33,360 bases of DNA from Phycisphaerales bacterium (GTDB lineage Bacteria; Planctomycetota; Phycisphaerae; WQYP01). Below are positions 2,039 through 28,460 of this stretch, one piece after another. Positions within the stretch are counted from its first letter, which is position 1; the number at the start of each line of letters is the position of its first letter. The notes under the pieces are model-generated. The model worked only from the letters and a program-made list of their open reading frames with translations. It was not told the origin of the DNA and searched no databases. A program made the translations under genes and the position numbers. The stretch covers positions 1-33,360 of the forward strand of contig DAHVEJ010000021.1 in NCBI GenBank assembly GCA_027313145.1, given 5' to 3'.

Positions 2039-2470
2039 ATGGCCAAGGTTAAGGAAATAGCCAAAAAGTTTAAGATGCAGGCCCCCGGCGGAACCGCCAC
2101 GCCCGCCCCACCGATTGGGCCGGTATTGGGTGCCAATGGCGTAAACCCTGGCCAGTTCATCCAACGCTTCAATGCCGCGACCGCTGCACTGAAAGGCAAG
2201 GTCGTCGGCGTGGAAGTTACCGTGTACACGGACCGTTCGTTTGATTTTGTCATCAAAACGCCGCCGGCATCGGTGATGATCAAAGACATTCTGGGGCTTG
2301 AAAAAGGCAGCGGTGAGCCGAACAAAAATAAGATCGGCAAGCTCACCAAAGCTCAACTGCGCAAACTGGCCCAGGAGAAATTGCCTGACTTGAACGCCGT
2401 GAATGTGGAATCCGCGGAAAAAATTCTGGCGGGTTCCGCCCGTTCGATGGGTGTTGAAATCACGGAATAA
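2039..2470 (+). CDS. rplK: 50S ribosomal protein L11
   Basis: 'MAKVKEIAKKFKMQAPGGTATPAPPIGPVLGANGVNPGQFIQRFNAAT...' canonical L11. Confidence 0.98.
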   Translation: MAKVKEIAKKFKMQAPGGTATPAPPIGPVLGANGVNPGQFIQRFNAATAALKGKVVGVEVTVYTDRSFDFVIKTPPASVMIKDILGLEKGSGEPNKNKIGKLTKAQLRKLAQEKLPDLNAVNVESAEKILAGSARSMGVEITE

Positions 2471-2471
2471 A

Positions 2472-3293
2472 ATGAAGCTAGCTTTTTCCACCAATGCCTT
2501 CAAAAAAACATCTCTGGAAGAAGCCGTTGATTCCATCGCCGCCGCCGGGTATGGCGGCGTGGAAATCATGGCGGATGTTCCGCATGCCTATCCGCCGCAC
2601 ATGCCGGACGGACGGATTGCGGATTTGCGGCGACAACTCGATTCGCTGAAGCTGCGCGTGTCCAATGTGAATGCGTTTACGTTTTTTGCCATCGGCGACA
2701 CGCTGCATCCTTCATGGATTGAAAATGACCCCGCCCTGCGGGAACAGCGCATCCGTCATACGGAAAACTGTATTCGCATGGCTGCGGCCCTGGGGGCGAA
2801 AACCATTTCACTGGAACCGGGTGGGCCGGTGGAAGCTCGACCCCGTGAAGAGGCGTTGTCGCTGTATCAGGCCGGACTCATGCGGGTTCTTCCGCTGGCG
2901 CAGCAGTTCAATATGATGCTGCTGGTGGAGCCTGAGCCGCGGCTTTTGATTGAAACAACAGACCAATGCGTGGAATTTTTGCGGCGGGTAAATCACCCGA
3001 ATTTGCGGATGAACTGCGATCTGGGGCATCTGTTTTGTGTGGGGGAAGATCCGGCGGAATCATTTGTGAAATGTCATTCGTGGGTATCGCATGTGCATGT
3101 AGAGGATATTGCGTCCAGTCGCGTGCATCACCATCTGATTCCCGGGCGCGGGGCCATGGATTGGGCGGCCATTTTCGCGGCCTTTCAGCAGGTGGATTAT
3201 AAGGGTTGGGCGACCGTGGAGCTTTATCCTTATGAAACCACGGCACGCGAAGCGGCGGATGAGGCGTTCGCATTTCTTCAGCGGTTTTTGTAA
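2472..3293 (+). CDS. Sugar phosphate isomerase/epimerase (xylose isomerase-like TIM barrel)
   Basis: 'MKLAFSTNAFKKTSLEEAVDSIAAAGYGGVEIMADVPHA...NCDLGHLFCVGEDP...HVHVEDI...LIPGRGAMDWAAIFAAFQQVDYKGWATVELYPYE'; ORF track start 2403 moved to ATG 2472 just after the rplK stop. Confidence 0.88.
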   Translation: MKLAFSTNAFKKTSLEEAVDSIAAAGYGGVEIMADVPHAYPPHMPDGRIADLRRQLDSLKLRVSNVNAFTFFAIGDTLHPSWIENDPALREQRIRHTENCIRMAAALGAKTISLEPGGPVEARPREEALSLYQAGLMRVLPLAQQFNMMLLVEPEPRLLIETTDQCVEFLRRVNHPNLRMNCDLGHLFCVGEDPAESFVKCHSWVSHVHVEDIASSRVHHHLIPGRGAMDWAAIFAAFQQVDYKGWATVELYPYETTAREAADEAFAFLQRFL

Positions 3294-3338
3294 GCTTTCC
3301 GTCGTGGCGGGGGCGGGCGTTCAACATCGGAAATAAAT

Positions 3339-4619
3339 ATGGACAATTTTCAATATATCAATGATCAACTGCATTGCCAGCGCGTGGCGGTGCGGGATAT
3401 TGTGGAAAAAACCGGCACGCCGACCTACATCTACAGCCAAGCCACGCTGCTGTCCCATTTTGACCGCATCGCATCCGCGTTTGCGCCGCTGAAGGCGCTT
3501 ATTTGTTATTCCATTAAATCCTGCGGGAATCTGGCCATTCTTCAGGCTTTGCGCCTACGCGGCAGCGGCTTTGATGTGGTGTCGGGCGGAGAGCTTTTTC
3601 GGGCGCTACAAGCCGGTGCGGACCCCGGCATGATTGTATTCGCGGGCGTCGGCAAAACAGATCAGGAAATCAACGAAGCGCTGGATGCCCGCATCGGCTG
3701 GTTCAATATTGAAAGCGAAGAGGAATTCTGGAATTTGGATCGTCTGGCCGGTGCCAAAAAACTCGTCGTGCACGGGGCGTTGCGGGTTAACCCCGATGTC
3801 AGCAGTGCCGGCACGCACCAGAAAACGCTTACGGGAAAAAAAGAGACGAAATTTGGCGTGGATATCGACCGGGCCGAAGTCTTTTATATTCAGGCGGCGG
3901 CGGCCAAAAATGCTCGGTTAAGCGCCCTGCATTTGCATATTGGTTCACCGATTAAATCCACGCAGCCGTATGTGGATGCCATTACCAAGGCGTTGAATCT
4001 GATCGACCGTTTGGCGGCGCGCAATATTATGATTGATACCCTGGATATCGGCGGGGGTTTTGCCGCTTTTTATGAAGGCAATGAAGCTCCGTCGGCCGCT
4101 GATTATGCCGCGGCGATTATCCCCCTGCTGAAGGATCGCAAACTGCGGATTATTCTGGAGCCGGGGCGGTCCATTTCCTGCAATGCCGGCATTCTGGTAA
4201 CGCGTGTGCAATACACTAAGCAGGGGGGGGCTAAGAAATTTATTATTGTAGATGCGGCCATGAATGATCTGATTCGTCCCACGCTGTATGAAAGCTATCA
4301 CTTCATCTGGCCGGTGGATGTCAGCGGATCGTGCCCGCCGGAAAATCGGTATAGTACGCTGCGAACGGCCAATGATGAAAAAGTGGATGTGGTCGGCCCG
4401 GTATGTGAGAGCGGAGATTATCTGGCAAAGGACCGGTATTTGCCGCGAGCCAAACGCGGAGATTTACTGGCCGTATTTTCAGCCGGTGCCTATGGGTTTG
4501 CCATGAGCAGCCAATACAATGCCCGTCCGCGGGCCGCGGAAGTGCTCGTGGATGGCAACGCCTGGCGGATTATCCGTCGGCGTGAAACGTACCAAGATTT
4601 AATTGCCGCGGAAATATAA
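3339..4619 (+). CDS. lysA: Diaminopimelate decarboxylase (PLP-dependent fold type III)
   Basis: 'TPTYIYSQATLLSHF...ICYSIKSCGNLAILQALRLRGSGFDVVSGGELFRAL', 'LDIGGGFAAFYEG', 'IILEPGRSISCNAGILVTRV', 'VVGPVCESGDYLAKDR'. Confidence 0.93.
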   Translation: MDNFQYINDQLHCQRVAVRDIVEKTGTPTYIYSQATLLSHFDRIASAFAPLKALICYSIKSCGNLAILQALRLRGSGFDVVSGGELFRALQAGADPGMIVFAGVGKTDQEINEALDARIGWFNIESEEEFWNLDRLAGAKKLVVHGALRVNPDVSSAGTHQKTLTGKKETKFGVDIDRAEVFYIQAAAAKNARLSALHLHIGSPIKSTQPYVDAITKALNLIDRLAARNIMIDTLDIGGGFAAFYEGNEAPSAADYAAAIIPLLKDRKLRIILEPGRSISCNAGILVTRVQYTKQGGAKKFIIVDAAMNDLIRPTLYESYHFIWPVDVSGSCPPENRYSTLRTANDEKVDVVGPVCESGDYLAKDRYLPRAKRGDLLAVFSAGAYGFAMSSQYNARPRAAEVLVDGNAWRIIRRRETYQDLIAAEI

Positions 4620-4624
4620 GCTTG

Positions 4625-5032
4625 ATGCTGCGCAAGAGTCAATATGTCGCTTCGGTTCCCATGCTCACGCGGCAATGGATTGTGGAAGGTTATATCTGGC
4701 AATGTGGCGGCCCGTGCGATCAACTGCCGGAAGACGCGAAATTTGTTGCCGTTCTTCCGGACCACAGCACACTTGTTGCCACAGCATCCCCAGCCGTTCC
4801 GCTCTCAGCGGCCGGTGTATTTGCACCATGGAAAGTAGTAATTTACAGTGATGCGGCGGAACAAACGCCTCTGGCGGTGTTGGATACGCTGGGCCATTAC
4901 GCCCAGATCGAATCATTCAGCGTTCCGCTCACAGATGATGAACCCGAAGACCCCGATACGATAGCGGCACCATCATTTTGCCGATTTCTCTGCGGAGAAA
5001 CCACCGGCGAACTGCACATCTGCCCGGATTAA
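4625..5032 (+). CDS. Hypothetical protein, ~135 aa, immediately downstream of lysA
   Basis: ORF 'MLRKSQYVASVPMLTRQWIVEGYIWQCGGPCDQLPEDAKFVAVLPDHSTLVATASPAVPL...'; opens 3-5 nt after the lysA stop, so likely co-transcribed. Confidence 0.6.
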   Translation: MLRKSQYVASVPMLTRQWIVEGYIWQCGGPCDQLPEDAKFVAVLPDHSTLVATASPAVPLSAAGVFAPWKVVIYSDAAEQTPLAVLDTLGHYAQIESFSVPLTDDEPEDPDTIAAPSFCRFLCGETTGELHICPD

Positions 5033-5143
5033 ATCAAGGGTATGGCTTCAACGACCCCAGCGCGTATCGCAACGCCGCCAACTCTCCCGGCGCTGGCGTA
5101 TTGGCCCCCATGAGAAAAATGGCAAATAACGGGATGCCGGGCT

Positions 5144-5182
5144 AAAAAAAAGGCCGACGATTCAGGGGGAATCGTCGGCCTT
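5144..5182 (-). terminator. Rho-independent terminator of the rplA-rplJ-rplL operon
   Basis: Inverted repeat AAGGCCGACGATTC-AGGGG-GAATCGTCGGCCTT, followed on the minus strand by an uninterrupted T run. Confidence 0.92.
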
Positions 5183-5238
5183 CGATTGTTTGAGCGGATC
5201 TGCTTTTGAAAGCAAACCAGGCTACTGACTTGTCAAAC

Positions 5239-5634
5239 TTATTTGAGTTCGACAGTTGCGCCTTCCGCTTCAAGCTCTTTCTTGAGCTTCTCGGCTTCAG
5301 CCTTATCAACACCGGCCTTGACCACCTTGGGGGCGGCTGTGACCAGATCCTTGGCTTCTTTGAGGCCCAAGTTGGTAGCAGCGCGGACGATTTTGATAAT
5401 CTGGATGGTTTTCTCACCGGGGGCTTTGAGCACCACATCAAAGGTGCTCTGCTCTTCCGCGGGAGCCGCCGCACCACCACCCCCTGCTGGGGCGGCCATC
5501 ATTACGCCACCGCCGGCAGCGGCTTCGATGCCGTGCTTTTCCTTGAGATAATCGCTGAGCTGTTTAGCCTGCAGCAGCGAGAGGGCAACAATCTTATCGC
5601 CCAGTTCCATGATGTCAGCAGCAAATTCTGCCAT
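5239..5634 (-). CDS. rplL: 50S ribosomal protein L7/L12
   Basis: '[40 protein letters not shown]...[72 protein letters not shown]'; internal Met chosen as start. Confidence 0.97.
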
Positions 5635-5766
5635 AGTAAAACTCCACAACTTCGCTTGTCTCCACCAGCCAGGGCGACGCGCCCCGTTTTAACTGCTCCA
5701 GGCAGGCTGAATGAATGACAAAAGACATAAAAAACAAATTAAATCGAGCTTATTGCACCGGTTCGC

Positions 5767-6303
5767 TTACGCGGCGACCGGGGCTTCTTTTTCCTTCTTT
5801 TCAATAACCGCTTTTACCAGACCCGCCACATTGCGGCCCGGCCCAACAATCTGACCGGCCAGTTTGCGGCCCGGAGAAATGGCCAGTGTCGAAATCTGGG
5901 AAAGCAATTCTTTGCGCCCGGGCAGTTTGGCCAAGGCTTCAGTGGCTGGTTTATCCAGCAAGTGGCCCTCAACGACCGATCCTTTGATTTTTAGCTTGGC
6001 GATTTCCTTGCCTTGTTCGAGCAATTCCTTTACGGAATCAACCACGGATTCGCCGCCATAAACCAAGGCGTTGGTGCCCAAAAGAAGATCGCCACCGGCC
6101 TTCAGGCCGACCTTTTCCATGGCCCGACGCCCCTGGGCGTTGGCAATGACGGTCATCCGCACATTTTTCTTCTTCAGGCCGTTGCGCAGTTTGTTGGTGT
6201 CGTTGGCGCTGATGCCGGAATAGTCCACAATCACCACGTTGTCGGCACCGGTCAGGCGCTTCTCAAGTTCCGCGGCAATCAGGTTTTTAATACGCTTACT
6301 CAT
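5767..6303 (-). CDS. rplJ: 50S ribosomal protein L10
   Basis: 'MSKRIKNLIAAELEKRLTGADNVVIVDYSGISANDTNKLRNGLKKKNVRMTVIANAQGRRAMEKVG' typical L10. Confidence 0.96.
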   Translation of the reverse strand: MSKRIKNLIAAELEKRLTGADNVVIVDYSGISANDTNKLRNGLKKKNVRMTVIANAQGRRAMEKVGLKAGGDLLLGTNALVYGGESVVDSVKELLEQGKEIAKLKIKGSVVEGHLLDKPATEALAKLPGRKELLSQISTLAISPGRKLAGQIVGPGRNVAGLVKAVIEKKEKEAPVAA

Positions 6304-6336
6304 AATGTAAACCTCTTAAGTGTTGTTTAGAAAATC

Positions 6337-7056
6337 TCAGGCGGTCTCAATGACATCCAGATGACTGGTGTCAATTTGCACGCCCGGGCTCATGGTGCTG
6401 TGGATCGTTACCTTTTTCACGTACTGGCCTTTGGACGTGGGGGGCTTTAACCGGCGAATGGTATTGATAAACGCGTGAATATTGGCTGCCAGATCGCCCT
6501 CGGCAAAACTCAATTTGCCGACAACGGCGTGAATATTACCGCCTTTATCATTGCGGAATTCCACCTTGCCGGCGGCGTATTCCTTAACGGCACTGGTAAC
6601 ATCGGTTGCGACGGTGCCGGCTTTGGGACTGGGCATTTTGCCCTGGGGGCCAAGGACCTTACCCAACCGAGTAATTTTCGGCATCATTTCTGGTGTCGCC
6701 ACGGCAACGTCAAAGTCCAGCCAGCCATCATTGACCTTTTTAATCAGGTCATCAGCCCCGGCTTCCACCGCTCCTGCGGCCTTGGCGGTTTCAATATCGT
6801 TGCCCTGAACGAATGCGATTACGCGGCGTGTCTTGCCAATACCTTTGGGCAAGCTTACCGAACCACGGACGTTTTGGTCGGCCTGGGTGGCATCAATGCC
6901 CAGATGAAGGACAATATTTACGCTTTCGTCAAATTTTGCCGCCTTGAACTTTTTGAGCACAGGAATGGCCTGCTCAACAGTCACCGGGGCTTTTGGCAAA
7001 TGTTCCACTGATTGACGATAGCGTTTTCCGCGCTGGTTTAGTGCTTTAATCGCCAT
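6337..7056 (-). CDS. rplA: 50S ribosomal protein L1
   Basis: '...LPKAPVTVEQAIPVLKKFKAAKFDESVNIVLHLGIDATQADQNVRGSVSLPKGIGKTRRVIAFVQG...LGPQGKMPSPKAGTVATDV' canonical L1. Confidence 0.97.
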   Translation of the reverse strand: MAIKALNQRGKRYRQSVEHLPKAPVTVEQAIPVLKKFKAAKFDESVNIVLHLGIDATQADQNVRGSVSLPKGIGKTRRVIAFVQGNDIETAKAAGAVEAGADDLIKKVNDGWLDFDVAVATPEMMPKITRLGKVLGPQGKMPSPKAGTVATDVTSAVKEYAAGKVEFRNDKGGNIHAVVGKLSFAEGDLAANIHAFINTIRRLKPPTSKGQYVKKVTIHSTMSPGVQIDTSHLDVIETA

Positions 7057-7544: not shown

Positions 7545-10500
7545 ATGCGTGTACGTGTAACGCAAGTGCGTGATTATTCAAAACGTGGCGATGCCTTGCC
7601 CATCCCGAACCTTATAGAGGTTCAGACCGCCGCCTATCGGCGCTTCCTGCAAGCGGACACAGAACCCGAAAAGCGAAAAAATGACGGCATAGAAGCGTTG
7701 TTGCGGGAAGTATTTCCCATTGAGTCGTATGACGGCTCCATGAAATTGGAATACATCAGCTATGAACTGGGCAAAGCGCGGTATTCGCGCGACGAATGCC
7801 GGGCGCTGCGTTTAACCTACGGCATGCCTCTGCGCATTAAGGTGCGCTTAAGCCGCAAGGACAAACCGGATATTGTCGAGGAATCGATTTATCTGGGTGA
7901 TGTACCAATTATGACGGGCGGCGGGGAATTTATTATCAACGGAGCGGAGCGCGTGATTGTTTCGCAGCTTCACCGTTCACCGGGCGTGGACTTTCTGATC
8001 CAATCCCAGGAAGGTGACCGCCCCTTACATTCCTGCCGGGTAATTCCCGAACGCGGAAGTTGGATTGAAATCAATGTCACCAAGAAGGACGTTCTGGTGG
8101 TACGCATTGACCAGTCGGGCAAGATTCCGGCTACCAGCTTCCTGCGGGCTATGGACGAGAAATATGGCACCGACGAAGCTTTAATCCGGGCCTTTTACGA
8201 AACCCGCACGGTTGCCGTCGGGCAGTTGAAGGCGGATTATTATGCGGTGGGTTCCATCGTGGACACCGAAACCGGCGAAGAGCTTGTGAAGTCCGGTGCG
8301 CAACTCGGTGATCGGGTGGCTAAAATTCAGGCCAGCAGCCTGAAAAAAATCGAAGTTATTGAGAAACTTGCGGATCCACTGATCCTTAATACTCTTCAGG
8401 AAGATGATTCCCATAGCCATAAAGAGGCTTTGCGTAAAATTTATAGTCGTCTGCGGCCGGGCAATCCACCCAATGATGACAAGGCCAAAACGCTGTTTGC
8501 GGAAAAATTCTTTGATGTGGCCCGTTATCGCCTGGGGCGGGTGGGGCGGTTCCGCATTAACCGCAAATTTGAGCAGAACGTTCCTGAAGATGTCATGACC
8601 CTGCGGCCGGAGGATATTCTCGGCAGCATTAAATACATTTTGGAACTGCGCGGCGGGCGCGGTTATGTTGATGATATTGACCATCTGGGCAATCGTCGCC
8701 TGCGTACCATTGACGAATTGGCGCAGGAAGAGTTGCGCAAGGGCTTCCTGAAACTGCGCCGCACGGTGCAAGAGCGCTTAAGCATGAAGGCCCCGGAAGA
8801 AGTTGCCAAGATTGTGGAACTGGTGAACTCCAAGAGCATCAGCAGTTCCATTGAATACTTCTTTGGTCGCAGCGAGCTATCGCAGGTGGTCGATCAGACC
8901 AATCCGCTTTCGCAGCTTACGCATGAACGTCGCCTGTCGGCCCTTGGGCCTGGCGGTTTAAACCGCAAGCGCGCGGGCTTTGAAGTTCGCGACGTGCACA
9001 TTTCGCACTATGGGCGTATCTGCCCGATTGAAACGCCGGAAGGCACCAACATCGGTCTGATTGCGTCATTGTCAATTTATGCCGGCGTTGATGACTATGG
9101 CTTCCTGATCACGCCGTATCGTGTGGTCGAAGGCGGCAAGGTCAACGGGGTGCATAAATATCTCCGTGCTGACGAAGAAATGAAAGCTGTTCTGGCTCCG
9201 CCTGAAGTGGCATCGCCGGAATCCGGGAAAGTGCGGCAGGACCTTCTCCTGGCCCGCGTGAACGGGGATTTGCAGCAGGTTCGCGGATCGGAAATTAACT
9301 ATGTTGATATTTCTCCCAAGCAAACGGTGGCCATCTCGGCGGCGTTAATTCCGTTCTTGGAGCATGATGATGCGAATCGCGCCCTGATGGGATCGAACAT
9401 GCAACGTCAGGCGGTGCCTCTGCTGATTACGGATCCTCCCGTGGTCGGAACCGGGCTGGAAAAGATTATTCCTTATAACAGCGGCATGGTGATCAAGGCG
9501 GACCGGGCCGGCGTCATCACCTTTGTTGATGCTTGCCGGATTGTCATTGACAATTCTGATGAATATGTCCTTCGGAAAAATGCGGGGTTAAATGACAAAA
9601 CCTGCATGACTCAGAAACCGCTGGTGGCGGTGGGACAAAAAGTTAAGAAGGGCCAGATAATTGCCGACGGCCCGGCCTGCCGCAATGGCGAATTGGCGCT
9701 GGGACGCAATGTTCTCGTGGCCTTTATGACCCTGGACGGCTACAACTATGAAGATGCCATTGTCGTTTCCGAACGGTTGATCAAGGGCGATGTATTTACG
9801 TCCATCCACATTGAGGAATTCGATGTGGAAGTGCGCGAAACCAAGCTCGGACGTGAAGAATTCACGCGGGATATTCCCAACGTCAGCGAAAAGGCTTTAA
9901 AAAACCTGGACGAAAACGGAATTGTCAGCATCGGCACGCATGTCAGCCCCGGTGATATTCTCGTAGGCAAGGTTTCACCCAAGAGCAAGACTGAACTATC
10001 GCCGGAAGAAAAACTTCTGCACGCCATTTTCGGTCGCGCCGGCGAAGACGTGAAGAATGATTCTCTGGAAGTTCCCGCCGGAACGGAAGGCGTGGTGATT
10101 GGCGCGCAGCGGTTCAGCCGGCGCATGCACATGAACGACGACCAGAAGAAAATTCTCCAGAAGGAAATGAAAGAGTACGGCAAGCAGATGGATGTGCGCA
10201 TCGCCGAACTATTTCGGAAAATGGCCGATGAAATCAATGAGGCCACCGGCCAGACCATGGTGGATCCGTCAACCCGGCAAAAAGTCGGTAAGTCGGATCA
10301 GGACGAGGTCATTCTGGAGCAGGTTGAAAGCTTTTCGGTAAGCTGGATCAAAGGCGCGGAAGATGCCCGTAAGCGCGGTGAGCAGATTTATCACCGTTAC
10401 AAAGCGACGCTGCAATCCATGCGTGAAGAAAAGACCAGAAAAATGGAGCACATGAAACGCGGTGATGAACTGCCTTCCGGTGTTCTTGAGATGGTCAAGG

Positions 10501-11297
10501 TTTATCTGGCAACGAAGCGTCAACTTTCGGTCGGTGACAAGATGGCAGGCCGCCACGGAAATAAGGGCGTCATTGCCCGTATTGTTCCCGAAGCGGATAT
10601 GCCGTTCCTGGAAGATGGAACACCGGTGGATATTGTGTTAAATCCGCTGGGCGTGCCGTCGCGTATGAACATTGGGCAGATTCTCGAAACGCACCTGGGT
10701 TGGGCTGCGGCGGTGCTGGGCTTCCAAGCGGTTACGCCGGTATTTGACGGTGCCACCGAATCGGAAATTCTTAAAGCTGTCGAAGAGGCCAATGCGCATG
10801 TGCGCAGTCGACGCGTGGAATTGGCTGAGAAGAAACTTCCACCGCCTCCTGGGGAAATTTCAGTTGAAATGCCGGCCCTTTTGAAAATCAACCTGTACGA
10901 CGGGCGTACCGGCGAACCGTTTGAGCAAAAGGTGACCGTGGGTTACATGTACATGCTTAAACTTCACCATCTGGTTGATGAGAAAATCCATGCCCGGTCC
11001 ACCGGTCCATACAGTCTTATCACCCAGCAACCGCTTGGCGGAAAAGCCCGCACCGGCGGTCAGCGATTCGGTGAGATGGAAGTGTGGGCCTTGGAAGCCT
11101 ACGGTGCCGCCTATGTGCTGCAGGAGCTTTTGACCGTTAAATCTGATGATGTGGAAGGCCGCACCAAGATTTATGAAAGCATGGTCAAAGGTACCAACAC
11201 GCTCGATGCCGGCACGCCGGTTTCCTTTGATGTGCTGTGCAATGAAATCCGCGGCTTAGGTTTGAATATTACTCTGGAAAAGAAGAAAGGAATATAG
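7545..11297 (+). CDS. rpoB: DNA-directed RNA polymerase subunit beta
   Basis: 1250 aa with canonical RpoB motifs such as '[21 protein letters not shown]', '[14 protein letters not shown]', '[58 protein letters not shown]'. Confidence 0.99.
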
Positions 11298-11348
11298 CGT
11301 TATAGCTCTGACAAGATAGTTTATGTTGTGTGCTTTAAGGAATTCATC

Positions 11349-11717
11349 TTGGGTGCGTGGTCTGAAATTAGTCGGGATAATTGGAAAGCGGCTCAAGCCC
11401 TGCGAGAGCGGTATCCTCGAAGCAGTGTGAGTCGCGCCTATTATGCCGCGTTTGCGGCGCTTACCCAGAAATTCGCGCATAAACGATTGTCTTTTTCAGG
11501 CAAGGAGTCGCCCCGGCATCGCGATATTCCCGACATGGTGAATCAAACTTTTTCGTCAAGGGAAGGTGCCAGGGATATTCGCCGAAATATCAGGGCATTA
11601 TATGCCATGCGATTGAACGCTGATTATTCTGCGGGCCGGTCTACCGATGCCCACGCCGCCAGGGAAGCAATCCGATCGTCGGCCATTGTATTACGAGCAT
11701 GCGGAGTAAACCTATGA
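11349..11717 (+). CDS. HEPN-like domain small protein (start uncertain; ORF opens at GTG 11328)
   Basis: 'SRDNWKAAQALRERYPRSSVSRAYYAAFAALTQKFAHKRLSF...RNIRALYAMRLNADYSAGRSTDAHAAREAIRSSAIVL' matches the HEPN pattern (SRAYYAAF..., R..ADY, helical C-terminus). Confidence 0.72.
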   Translation: MGAWSEISRDNWKAAQALRERYPRSSVSRAYYAAFAALTQKFAHKRLSFSGKESPRHRDIPDMVNQTFSSREGARDIRRNIRALYAMRLNADYSAGRSTDAHAAREAIRSSAIVLRACGVNL

Positions 11718-11974
11718 GCCTGCAATCGGAAGATTTGAGCGGGGTATCGAAGGTGGTTGAGAAATATTTAAAAAAGCACCAACCGCGAAATTATAAGTTG
11801 GTCGTTAAACAAGCAGGATCAAGGCAAGACGGTGACTGGTGGTATATTCTGGTTCAACCTGACAAAAAGACAGTAAGCTCATTTGACTATGCCAGCAGGC
11901 TGGCGAAAACGGAGGATGAGTTAAGTGAAAATGAGCATTTGAAGGTACTGCTTGTTCCTGTGATACCGGAATAA
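11714..11974 (+). CDS. Small unknown protein (~86 aa), partner of the HEPN-like gene
   Basis: 'MSLQSEDLSGVSKVVEKYLKKHQPRNYKLVVKQAGSRQDGDWWYILVQPDKKTVSSFDYASRLAKTEDELSENEHLKVLLVPVIPE'; ATG overlaps the upstream TGA (ATGA). Confidence 0.75.
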   Translation: MSLQSEDLSGVSKVVEKYLKKHQPRNYKLVVKQAGSRQDGDWWYILVQPDKKTVSSFDYASRLAKTEDELSENEHLKVLLVPVIPE

Positions 11975-12015: not shown

Positions 12016-15000
12016 ATGGCTGAAACAGCAGTTTATGATCGAATTAATGACTACGGCGCGGTAAAAATCGCCTTGGCCAGCCCGAACGACATTCGTTCCT
12101 GGAGCTTTGGCGAAGTCAAAAAGCCTGAAACGATTAACTATCGCACCTATCGTCCGGAAAGGGACGGTTTGTTCTGCGAACGCATTTTTGGCCCGGAACG
12201 GGACTGGGAATGTGCCTGCGGAAAATATAAGGGCACAAAGTACAAGGGTGTTATCTGTGATCGTTGCGGGGTGAAAGTAACCCACAGCCGCGTGCGGCGC
12301 AAGCGCATGGGGCATATCAGCCTCGCGGCCCCCATTGTTCATATCTGGTTTTTCAAGGCCATGCCCAGTCGCTTGGGCAACTTGCTGGATATGAAGACCA
12401 GTGATCTGGAAAAAGTGGTCTATTACCAAGATTATTGCGTGACCGACCCCGGCACGACCCCCTTAAAGAAGAAACAGTTGCTCACGGAAGAAGAGCACCG
12501 CGATGCGCGCGAGAAATATGGTGATTCCTTTAAGGCTGAGATGGGAGCCGACGCAGTACGTTCCCTGCTCAATGCGATGAATCTTGCGGAAGTGTCCAGC
12601 CAGATTCGTGAAGGTATTGAGACCACCAACAGCAAGCAGAAAATTAAGGACTTCACGAAACGTCTGAAAATCGTGGAAGCGATTCGCCAGTCGCAAAATA
12701 AGCCCGAATGGATGATCTTTGAAGTCATTCCGGTTATTCCGCCGGACCTTCGGCCTCTGGTGCTGCTGGAATCAGGCAACTTTGCCACCAGTGATCTTAA
12801 TGATCTCTATCGCCGAATTATCAACCGCAACAACCGCCTGCGCAAGCTTGTGGATCTTAATGCGCCGGAAGTGATCATCCGCAATGAAAAGCGAATGCTG
12901 CAACAGGCCGTCGATGCGTTGTTTGACAACGGACGCTGCCGCCGGCCAGTGCTGGGGGCCTCCAATCGGCCGCTGAAATCTCTGACCGATATGATCAAAG
13001 GCAAGCAGGGGCGATTCCGTGAGAATCTTCTGGGCAAGCGCGTGGATTATTCCGCCCGTTCGGTCATTGTGGTAGGGCCGGAATTAAAACTCCATCAATG
13101 CGGTATGCCTAAGAAAATCGCTTTGGAGCTTTTCCAGCCGTTTATCATCCGTAAGCTCAAAGAGCATGGGTACGCGGACACCATCAAGTCCGCCAAGAAA
13201 ATGATTGAGCGTCGGGATCGGGAAATCTGGGACATCCTGGAAGAAGTCATTAAGGGACACCCCGTGCTGCTGAATCGTGCCCCCACGCTGCACCGCATTG
13301 GTATTCAGGCCTTTGAGCCGGTGCTCATTGAAGGTAACGCTATCAAAATTCACCCGTTGGTCTGTAAGGGTTTCAACGCCGATTTTGACGGCGATCAGAT
13401 GGCCGTGCATTTACCGCTATCGGTGGAAGCACAGGCTGAAGCACAAATGTTGATGCTTTCCACGCATAACATTTTCTCATCCGCCAATGGATCGCCCATT
13501 ATTGGTCCTTCCCAGGACATCGTGATGGGGATTTACTACATCACCACCATGCGGCAGGGTGAACCAGGCTGGCGTGAGCCTGGCAAGGAACTGGCGTTCC
13601 ATAATTATCACGAGGCTCTGCTGGCTTATGACCGCAAGCAGATCGGTATTCATACGCCAATTCGTATCCGCATCACGCGCGGTAAAGTAGTCAATGGGCA
13701 GGGCAAAGCTCCGGAAGCCGCTCCGGCTAACCGGGTTATCGTATCGACCGTCGGTCGCTGCATGTTTAACGACATCCTGGCACCGGCCATGCCGTTTTAT
13801 AATTACACGCTTTCCAGCAAGGGCGGCAGCCGCGTCATTGCGGACTGCTATCAGTTGCTGGGTCGCCCGGCCACGATTGACCTGCTGGACAACATGAAGG
13901 AACTGGGCTTTAAGATGTCCACCCTTGCGGGATTAAGCTTCGGTATAACCGATCTGCGAATTCCCGCCCGCAAGTCCCAGATTATTGACGAATCCCAGAA
14001 GAAGGCGGATCGCGTTGAGAAAAATCTCAACCTCGGTGCCATTACTGAACGTGAACGTTATAACCAGCTTCTGGACATCTGGGCGCACGCCCGTGAAGAA
14101 GTCACAAAAGACATGATGCTGGAACTCGAACATGACACTCGTGATGAGAAAAACCTTACTCCCATGGCTCCCAAAGACCCCAAGGGTAAGCCTTATCTGA
14201 ATCCGGTTTTCCTCATGGCGGATTCCGGTGCCCGCGGTAACGTCGATAACTTCCGGCAGCTTGCCGGTATGCGTGGTTTGATGAGCCGGCCATCCGGTGA
14301 AATCATGGAAACGCCTATCAAAACCAATTTCCGTGAAGGTTTGTCCGTGTTGGAATATTTCACATCGACGCACGGTGCCCGTAAGGGATTGGCCGACACG
14401 GCATTGAAGACGGCCGACTCCGGTTACCTGACGCGTAAATTGGCGGACGTGGCGCAAAATGTCATTGTTTCGCAACATGATTGCGGCACGCAAAACGGCA
14501 TTCGCAAGAGTGCCATTTACAAGGGTGAACAGGTTGATGTGCCTTTGCGGGACGTTATCATCGGTCGGTGCGCGGCTGATACCTTGATTAATCCGGTAAC
14601 GGATGAAGTGATTGTCCGCGAGGCACAAATCATCACCGATGTCATTGCCCGCAAGATTGAAGATCTGAACATCGAAACCGTTCGGGTTCGCAGCCCATTA
14701 ACCTGCGAAAGCCCCAACGGCATTTGCGCCAAATGCTATGGTGTTGATCATTCCACCAACACGCTGGTGGAAGAGGGCTTGGCGGCCGGAATTATCGCCG
14801 CACAGTCCATCGGTGAACCCGGCACGCAGCTTACCATGCGTACCTTCCATACCGGCGGTTCGGCCACACGTATTCTGGAAAAGAATGACGTGCGGGCCGG
14901 CGTTGCGGGTATTGTTGAATATCGTGACCTCAATGCCGTTGAAGTTGTGGATGCCGAAGGCAATAAACATATTGTCGTACTCAAACGTAACGGCGAAATT

Positions 15001-16371
15001 GCCATTAAGGATTCCAAAGGTCGCGAACTGGAGAAATCCCGCGTTCCCTATGGCGCTTCGATTCTGGTGAAAGAAGGCGATAGCGTCCGAGGCGGTCAGC
15101 AACTTTGCAGTTGGGATCAACACCGTACCCCGATTCTCGCTGAAAAGGGTGGCCGCGTGAAGTTTGAAGATATCCAGGACGGTGAAACCGCACGTGCCGA
15201 AAGTGAAGGCAAGGGCGGCAGCAAGCGTCTGGTGATTGTCGAGCACCGTGGCGAACGCCATCCACGTATCGTCATTGAAGATCCCTCGGATGGCAAGATT
15301 CTGGACTTCCATTATCTGCCCGCCAAAGCCCGTATTGACGTTGACGAAGGTCAGATTGTTCAGCCGGGCACATTGCTGGCCCGTCAGCCGCGGGAAATCA
15401 AGGGTACGTCGGATATCACATCCGGTCTGCCCCGCGTAACGGAAATTTTTGAAGCGCGGAAACCCAAGGATACCGCCATCATGGCGGAAATTTCGGGCAC
15501 CATCGAACTGCGTTCCGATAAGCGCCGGGGTAAGATGACCATCATTATCCGCGGCCCCGGCGGCGTGGAAAAGGAACACCATGTCCCGCAGGATCGGCAG
15601 TTGCGTGTGCATACGGGCGATCAGGTGGAGGCCGGCGATTCATTGATCGATGGACCGCTGGTACCGCATGACATTCTTCGCATCAAGGGCGAAGACGCTC
15701 TTCAGCAGTATCTGCTAGGTGAAGTTCAAAATGTGTATCGCACACAGAACCAACGGATCAGTGATAAGCACATTGAAATCATTGTTTCCCAGATGCTTCG
15801 CAAAGTGAAAGTTGAAAACCCCGGCGACACCAAGTTCCTGCCGTCGGAAGTTGTTGATAAGTTCAAGTTCCGAAAGCAGAATGAAATGCTTGCCAAGATG
15901 CTGCGGATTGATGATCCGGGCACCAGCGAATATACGGTCGGCCAGTTGGTCAACCGTGATGAGCTTAAGGAAACCGTGGCCGCGATTGAAGCCAAGGGCG
16001 GGACCGCTCCCAAAACCCGTCGTCCCAAGCCGGCGACTGCTAAAACCCTGCTGCTGGGTATTACGAAGGCCAGCTTGCAAAGCGAGTCATTTGTATCTGC
16101 CGCCAGCTTCCAGGAAACCACCAAGGTACTCACTGAAGCCGCCATTGCCGGTCGCGAAGATACCTTGCAGGGCCTGAAGGAAAACGTGATTCTTGGTCAC
16201 TTGATTCCCGCCGGTACCGCGTTCCGGCCTTATCAGGATATGCAGGTTCTCCATCTCGGTGAGCCGATTCAGGAATTGGAACTGGAAATCCCGGTTCCCA
16301 TGCCGCTTCCGGATCCCGTCACCCCGGCCCCAGTCAAGGCCCCTCAGGTGGCTCAACCCGCCGGTGCCTGA
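12016..16371 (+). CDS. rpoC: DNA-directed RNA polymerase subunit beta'
   Basis: 1451 aa with '[16 protein letters not shown]', '[20 protein letters not shown]', '[61 protein letters not shown]'. Confidence 0.99.
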
Positions 16372-26939: not shown

Positions 26940-28460
26940 ATGCAAACATCTTATGGCTTCGTCCCAGTTTCTGGCACCATCAATGGCCGAAAAATTGAGC
27001 ATTGCGCGTGCTTGCGCCGAGTTAAACTACAACGCGCCGCGTCATTGGCGATGGCACTGCTGCTGATGCTGTTAATGGTGTCGCCGGTAAGAGCTGCCAA
27101 GCCCGTTATCTCGCTGTTGGCGGAACATGGTCGGCTGATCGGATCAAAGGTGGCCAAAACCATTCCCGGGTTTGTCGGCAAGGGTTATGTTACAGGCTTT
27201 ACCAAGCCGGGTGATCGTCTGATCTTGATGTTCCATACTCCCGCTGCCGGGTTGTATGACGCGATCATTCGCTATAGTTCTCCCGGGAAAAAAGGCTTTG
27301 TCCTTACGGTCAACGGACTCCAATATTCGAGCATGTTCCCATCATCGCCAAAGCACTTTTCCAATTTTGATTCCGGCCTGGTGGATATCAAGGCGGGAAA
27401 GAATGTGGTTTCCATCGGCGGAGGATGGGGGTATTACAGCATAGATTCCGTCACGTTTATTCCAGCCCCGCCCCCGCCGCCCCCGTCCCGGCCCAGCGCC
27501 CAATTAAGCGATCCGGAGGCCACACCCCAGGCCAGATTGCTGATGAGTCATCTTGTTGCCGTATATGGCCGGAGAATGTTGACCGGCGTATACAGCAGTG
27601 CGGATGCCGGCTACGTGCATCGAATAACTGGCCGATATCCATCTATTTTGGGTGGTGATCTTGTTAATTACTCGCCGTCACGCCTGGAACATGGTGCCAA
27701 TCCGCATCATGAAGTGCGCAAACTCATCGACGCTGCAAAGCGGGGATTTATCCTGACGGTCTCATGGCATTGGAATGCGCCGGCTGAACTTATTGATCAC
27801 AATTATGTCAACGCCCAGGGGAAAACTGTCCAATCCCATTGGTGGTCGGGTTTTTATACCAAATCCACCAAGTTTAATATTGCCAAAGTCCTGGCTCATC
27901 CGCAAAGTAAAAACTATCATCTGATGATCAGTAATATAGATGCGATTGCCGTGCAACTTAAAAAATTTGACAAGGCTGGAATTCCGATTCTGTGGCGGCC
28001 TTTGCATGAAGCCTCCGGCGGCTGGTTCTGGTGGGGGGCGCACGGCCCGAAGCCTTTCAAGAAGCTTTGGCGGCTGATGTATGATCGACTGACCTATCAT
28101 TTTCACCTGCATAATTTAATTTGGGTTTATACCACCGCCGGTACGGGCAGGTGGTATCCGGGAAACAAATATGTGGATATCGTCGGGGTGGATCAATATC
28201 CCCAAAACACCAATGACCCATTAAGCAACGTGTGGCAGAATTGCCAAAAGCATTTTCCCAATAAATTAGTTGCGATGACGGAGTTTGGTGGTGTGGTGAA
28301 CGCTCAAAAGTCATTTCATTTTGGCGTGTATTGGGATTACGCGGTGAGTTGGGTAGGTTTTGTGCGTTCCAGCCATGAGAGTCCCCGGCTGCTAAAAGAA
28401 ATATACAACCAACCCGAGGTACTTACGCACGCACAAACAAAAAACTGGCTGCAATACTAA
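26940..28460 (+). CDS. Secreted glycoside hydrolase family 26 (mannanase-like) with N-terminal CBM35-like module; alternative start ATG 27051
   Basis: Signal peptide 'MALLLMLLMVSPVRAA'; 'GLYDAIIRYSSPGKKGFVLTVNG...IKAGKNVVSIGGGWGYYSIDSVTFIPAPPPPPP' then 'LTGVYSS...ILTVSWHWNAP...PILWRPLHEASGGWFWWG...IVGVDQYP...VAMTEFGG'. Confidence 0.88.
   Translation: MQTSYGFVPVSGTINGRKIEHCACLRRVKLQRAASLAMALLLMLLMVSPVRAAKPVISLLAEHGRLIGSKVAKTIPGFVGKGYVTGFTKPGDRLILMFHTPAAGLYDAIIRYSSPGKKGFVLTVNGLQYSSMFPSSPKHFSNFDSGLVDIKAGKNVVSIGGGWGYYSIDSVTFIPAPPPPPPSRPSAQLSDPEATPQARLLMSHLVAVYGRRMLTGVYSSADAGYVHRITGRYPSILGGDLVNYSPSRLEHGANPHHEVRKLIDAAKRGFILTVSWHWNAPAELIDHNYVNAQGKTVQSHWWSGFYTKSTKFNIAKVLAHPQSKNYHLMISNIDAIAVQLKKFDKAGIPILWRPLHEASGGWFWWGAHGPKPFKKLWRLMYDRLTYHFHLHNLIWVYTTAGTGRWYPGNKYVDIVGVDQYPQNTNDPLSNVWQNCQKHFPNKLVAMTEFGGVVNAQKSFHFGVYWDYAVSWVGFVRSSHESPRLLKEIYNQPEVLTHAQTKNWLQY

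Follow-up and report, generated by a model that had tools for sequence, protein, structure and literature searches.

Between rpoB and rpoC in a Phycisphaerales bacterium lie two short, overlapping open reading frames (ORFs) on the same strand, and the question they raise is what such a pair does inside the RNA polymerase operon. HEPN ribonucleases are widespread conflict effectors, and in the toxin pairs that have been studied well they are held in check through AMPylation by MNT. The original prediction for this window (the whole analyzed stretch of 33,360 nucleotides) was that the first gene encodes a HEPN-like protein, that the second encodes a partner of another kind, and that the two could form an undescribed module. 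The features on which the analysis rests are as follows.

7545..11297, + strand: rpoB, upstream flank, a 1250-aa ORF with homologues in all family genomes in which the junction was read
11339..11343, + strand: Shine-Dalgarno-like AAGGA ahead of the HEPN start, read from the sequence
11349..11717, + strand: HEPN gene, 122 aa, likely start TTG 11349 by homologues (PF05168, E 2.1e-7; predicted fold)
11517..11519, + strand: codon of H57; at least 95% of 27 modules have this histidine
11610..11627, + strand: R88-L-N-A-D92-Y93 (the R..ADY motif), with R88, D92, and Y93 conserved in at least 95% of 27 modules
11714..11974, + strand: partner gene, 86 aa, in ATGA overlap with the HEPN stop; no family match, alpha-beta-beta-alpha-beta model, homologue adjoining HEPN in 29/31 loci
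12016..16371, + strand: rpoC, downstream flank, a 1451-aa ORF

The predicted overlap of the two genes within the operon was borne out, with the HEPN stop and the partner start sharing ATGA at 11714-11717. The start of the HEPN gene, originally placed at GTG 11328, was moved to the likely TTG 11349, because homologues start at that position and AAGGA lies 7 nt upstream. As a sigma-70 scan recognized no promoter inside the cassette, it is probably transcribed together with rpoB and rpoC, so that its products would appear whenever the cell makes RNA polymerase; terminator-like sites within it are at chance level.

The HEPN assignment goes beyond chance likeness. The predicted features SRAYYAAF and R..ADY are present, the match to PF05168 scores 31.5 bits where the curated cut-off is 22, and structure prediction, proposed at the outset as a check, gave a confident HEPN helical fold (AlphaFold, pLDDT 90.7). 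Searching the PDB by sequence returned noise only; the fold search instead gave matches, the top ones all HEPN (TM 0.6-0.76, none reaching E 0.001). On its family match above cut-off and its predicted fold, we take the first ORF to encode a true HEPN protein.

The catalytic motif was first sought in RSTDAH, read as RX4H near the C terminus. This candidate was rejected, as the closest relative has LTTDVA there and the motif is not conserved across modules. The conserved positions are R24, R29, Y31, H57, R88, D92, and Y93, and four of these (H57, R88, D92, and Y93) form the candidate active site. The stretch R88..D92 departs from the canonical Rx4-6H motif by having D for H. In part of the HEPN-T family, D replaces the usual H and a conserved H is found elsewhere (PMC3710099), a pattern into which H57 would fit as the separate histidine. 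It can be hypothesized that the protein cuts RNA independently of metal ions, probably as a dimer, with H57, R88, and D92 as the residues at work.

The partner was described originally as beta-rich and lacking the MNT motif. The second part stands: there is no GS...D.D, and no nucleotidyltransferase family matches at E up to 10. The first is half right, since strands are present, yet the AlphaFold model, of moderate quality (pLDDT 78.7), is mixed. No family in Pfam, NCBIfam, or PADLOC matches (the sole subthreshold Pfam match has E 0.19), and no known antitoxin relative was found. In a fold search, type II KH folds came up as weak matches (best E 0.018, TM about 0.5-0.6), a weak lead on which we do not rely. 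Searches of plasmids, phages, and viral contigs returned nothing convincing for the partner, the plasmid matches (E 0.5-8) being noise, and a scan of viral contigs found no HEPN counterpart.

Because the partner shows no nucleotidyltransferase signature, we propose that this translationally coupled protein most likely neutralizes HEPN through binding. The comparison with known systems is instructive here. Like HEPN-MNT (HepT-MntA, type VII) toxin-antitoxin (TA) systems, the pair is a two-gene operon joining a HEPN toxin-type protein, with a conserved Tyr near the active site, to a small partner. Unlike them, it lacks the MNT signature that defines membership, places HEPN first, and has D92 plus a separate H57 as candidate site instead of the usual H. 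One could suppose that this is an ordinary HEPN-MNT pair with a degenerate MNT, given that HEPN-MNT is the commonest HEPN pair and that an MNT-complex chain (7aer_A) stands far down among the fold matches of the partner (rank 50, TM 0.54); set against the failure to match any nucleotidyltransferase family, the reversed gene order, and the presence of clear MNT-HEPN pairs in the same class (G037 and G453), this is highly improbable. The HEPN-T family (PF05168; PMC3710099) shares the family match and the replacement of H by D with a conserved H elsewhere, whereas the partner here belongs to no described family. A HEPN protein (MAE_18760) is likewise paired with a non-MNT partner, a ParA/Soj-like ATPase (PMC3710099), in contrast to the 86-aa partner, which has no ATPase match.

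Whether the two genes belong together was addressed in 400 genomes of the window's class. The partner profile matches in 30 of them, with a patchy distribution, and nearly every match is immediately preceded by a HEPN of the same subfamily or by what is left of one; a truncated partner in G513 and a marginal match in G046 have none. In the reverse direction, 31 HEPN loci were counted at 50 bits or more, all with a small ORF directly downstream, which is a recognizable partner in 29 and not recognizable as such in G226 and G671. Weaker HEPN matches include an ordinary MNT pair (G453). The expectation that the pair would be conserved together is thus upheld. Purifying selection acts on both genes, with dN/dS between G000 and G001 of 0.17 for HEPN and 0.11 for the partner. 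The pair is a real module and, as in type II TA systems, consists of two small, coupled, conserved neighbor genes.

The module recurs beyond the window's operon, and this, together with its exchange between species, goes further than the original prediction. Core-operon junctions hold 25 of the 31 loci: 17 at rpoB-rpoC (6 in the window's genus and 2 in a single junction of G535), 7 at iscS-iscU, and 1 at rpsL-rpsG, with 6 elsewhere. For some iscS-iscU copies, iscU was read directly and iscS was deduced; iscS, iscU, gltD, and rpsL were named by Pfam, and gltB and rpsG by eye. Two copies from another class of the phylum are associated with gltD, one at the gltB-gltD junction and the other next to a gltD-like reading frame. 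The counts, which come from a single class, strongly suggest a preference for core-operon sites rather than prove it, since copies within one family may share ancestry and some of the assemblies, several in number, are incomplete. A single rpoB-rpoC insertion for all copies was considered and rejected, as the tree needs 6 label changes; because at least 3 of these are forced by strongly supported branches, several arrivals or departures of the module are likely. The 4 iscS-iscU copies that the tree includes group as a single clade. In the double junction of G535 (L114, 2707-4591), an acetyltransferase-like ORF sits between the two modules, and ORFs of similar kind occur in L111 and L133.

Within the window's genus, the cassette has been replaced between species. 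Comparing G000 with G006, a sister species, DNA identity is 98.3% in rpoC and 96.5% in rpoB (of the DNA compared) and 50.6% in the junction, dropping at the rpoB stop and recovering just before the rpoC start. Instead, the cassettes of G000 and G001 are 80% alike, and the rpoC genes of these two are just 80% identical. Over the last 150 nt of rpoB, G000 and G001 agree at 94%, against about 80% elsewhere, which would point to recombination in the flank; since G006 also shows 89% there, this is suggestive and not proof. The replacement and the patchy distribution mark the module as horizontally mobile, as are type II TA systems. Decay is one-sided, an indirect hint that HEPN may be toxic and the partner neutralizing. 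In five lineages (G002, G027/G018, G038, G513, and G529), HEPN is deleted or broken and partner sequence is left, intact and constrained in G002. Among the loci examined, no intact HEPN was seen with the partner position empty. Retention of the partner is not strict, because it is frameshifted in G018 and truncated in G513.

Fast allele replacement would fit genetic conflict, and it could be speculated that the module acts in phage defense by abortive infection, in that, once a phage shuts off host transcription, a labile partner would no longer be replenished and the HEPN RNase would be set free. HEPN RNases act in many defense systems (PMC3710099), and the protein has weak matches to PADLOC HEPN models. 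No defense island was seen in the contexts read, however, and the phage, plasmid, and viral collections searched yielded no copy, so that we regard this role as unlikely; it overlaps with a TA-like reading rather than excluding it.

The junction itself was sampled in 60 other genomes, which were chosen independently of the module and almost all belong to different genera. It spans 219 nt or less in 48 of them and 474 nt or more in 12. Among the cargo of the longer junctions are BrnT accompanied by an antitoxin-like ORF, a PD-(D/E)XK protein, and 23S-IVP proteins; BrnT is confirmed by Pfam in L143 and recognized by eye in L141, L175, and G015, and an antitoxin-like ORF is present in L165 and L185. 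The rpoB-rpoC junction accepts several unrelated small genes. In G015, another genus of the same family, the BrnT-like and antitoxin-like pair lies at L057 8330-8855; other families have comparable pairs (L141, L143, and L175), and L129, L134, and L138 carry 23S rRNA intervening-sequence-type and PD-(D/E)XK (GxxExxY-like) genes. Among the papers searched, we found no report of a TA insertion between rpoB and rpoC, nor of BrnT with rpoB and rpoC.

Two further explanations bear on this junction. In the first, the module would be a domesticated regulator, its HEPN RNase cutting the polycistronic mRNA at the junction to set the rpoB/rpoC ratio under control of the partner. Its place within operons needing balanced subunits, the tight spacing, and the lack of a recognized promoter agree with such a role; its occurrence in unrelated operons (iscS-iscU and rpsL-rpsG), its absence from most sampled rpoB-rpoC junctions, and its exchange and loss within one genus speak against it and leave it distinctly improbable. 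In the second, the pair would not function as a toxin system at all and would be carried along neutrally, or in a structural role, in a junction that merely tolerates small inserts, as the unrelated genes found there might suggest. Purifying selection on both genes and the conserved candidate catalytic residues make this very unlikely.

The reading that we favor, and consider reasonably probable, is a two-gene TA-like cassette, swappable in core operons, that joins a HEPN ribonuclease toxin to a new, probably binding-type antitoxin. It is based on the predicted HEPN fold, pair conservation, purifying selection, core-operon sites, cassette replacement, and one-sided decay; RNase activity, toxicity, binding, and addiction are what we infer. 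It gains support from BrnT, a known TA gene, occupying the same junction in other genera: in BrnT/BrnA (type II), as here, the (predicted) RNase toxin gene comes first and the antitoxin second, although the proteins are unrelated. Counting against it are the moderate partner model, the lack of a known antitoxin relative, the HEPN-first order, which reverses that of most MNT-HEPN pairs (PMC3710099), and the imperfect retention of the partner. The cassette would be a mobile, perhaps addictive passenger of core-operon junctions, exchanged between species probably via recombination in conserved flanks and decaying by loss of HEPN first. The original view of an undescribed two-component module is supported in that the partner matches no family and by the literature that was found; it erred in the catalytic motif chosen.

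More tentatively, and with some doubt, it is conceivable that the module represents a new class of mobile TA cassette specialized to core-operon junctions (rpoB-rpoC, iscS-iscU, rpsL-rpsG, and probably gltB-gltD), with rpoB-rpoC as a shared dock for several unrelated TA-like genes. Such a cassette would spread as the conserved genes on either side recombine, and it would persist because taking it out puts an essential operon at risk. If the TA-like reading is true, a partner from outside the described families that probably works by binding would be a further means of controlling HEPN RNases, and the core-operon niche would make it testable whether TA genes persist by becoming inseparable from indispensable genes.

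Elsewhere in the window, the ribosomal-protein cluster at 2039-7056 is rearranged, with rplK on the + strand, rplA, rplJ, and rplL on the - strand and divergent from rpoB, and a TIM-barrel-type gene and a decarboxylase-type (lysA-like) gene in between (all named by eye). At 26940-28460, a 506-aa ORF resembles, by eye, a family 26 glycoside hydrolase of the mannanase type.
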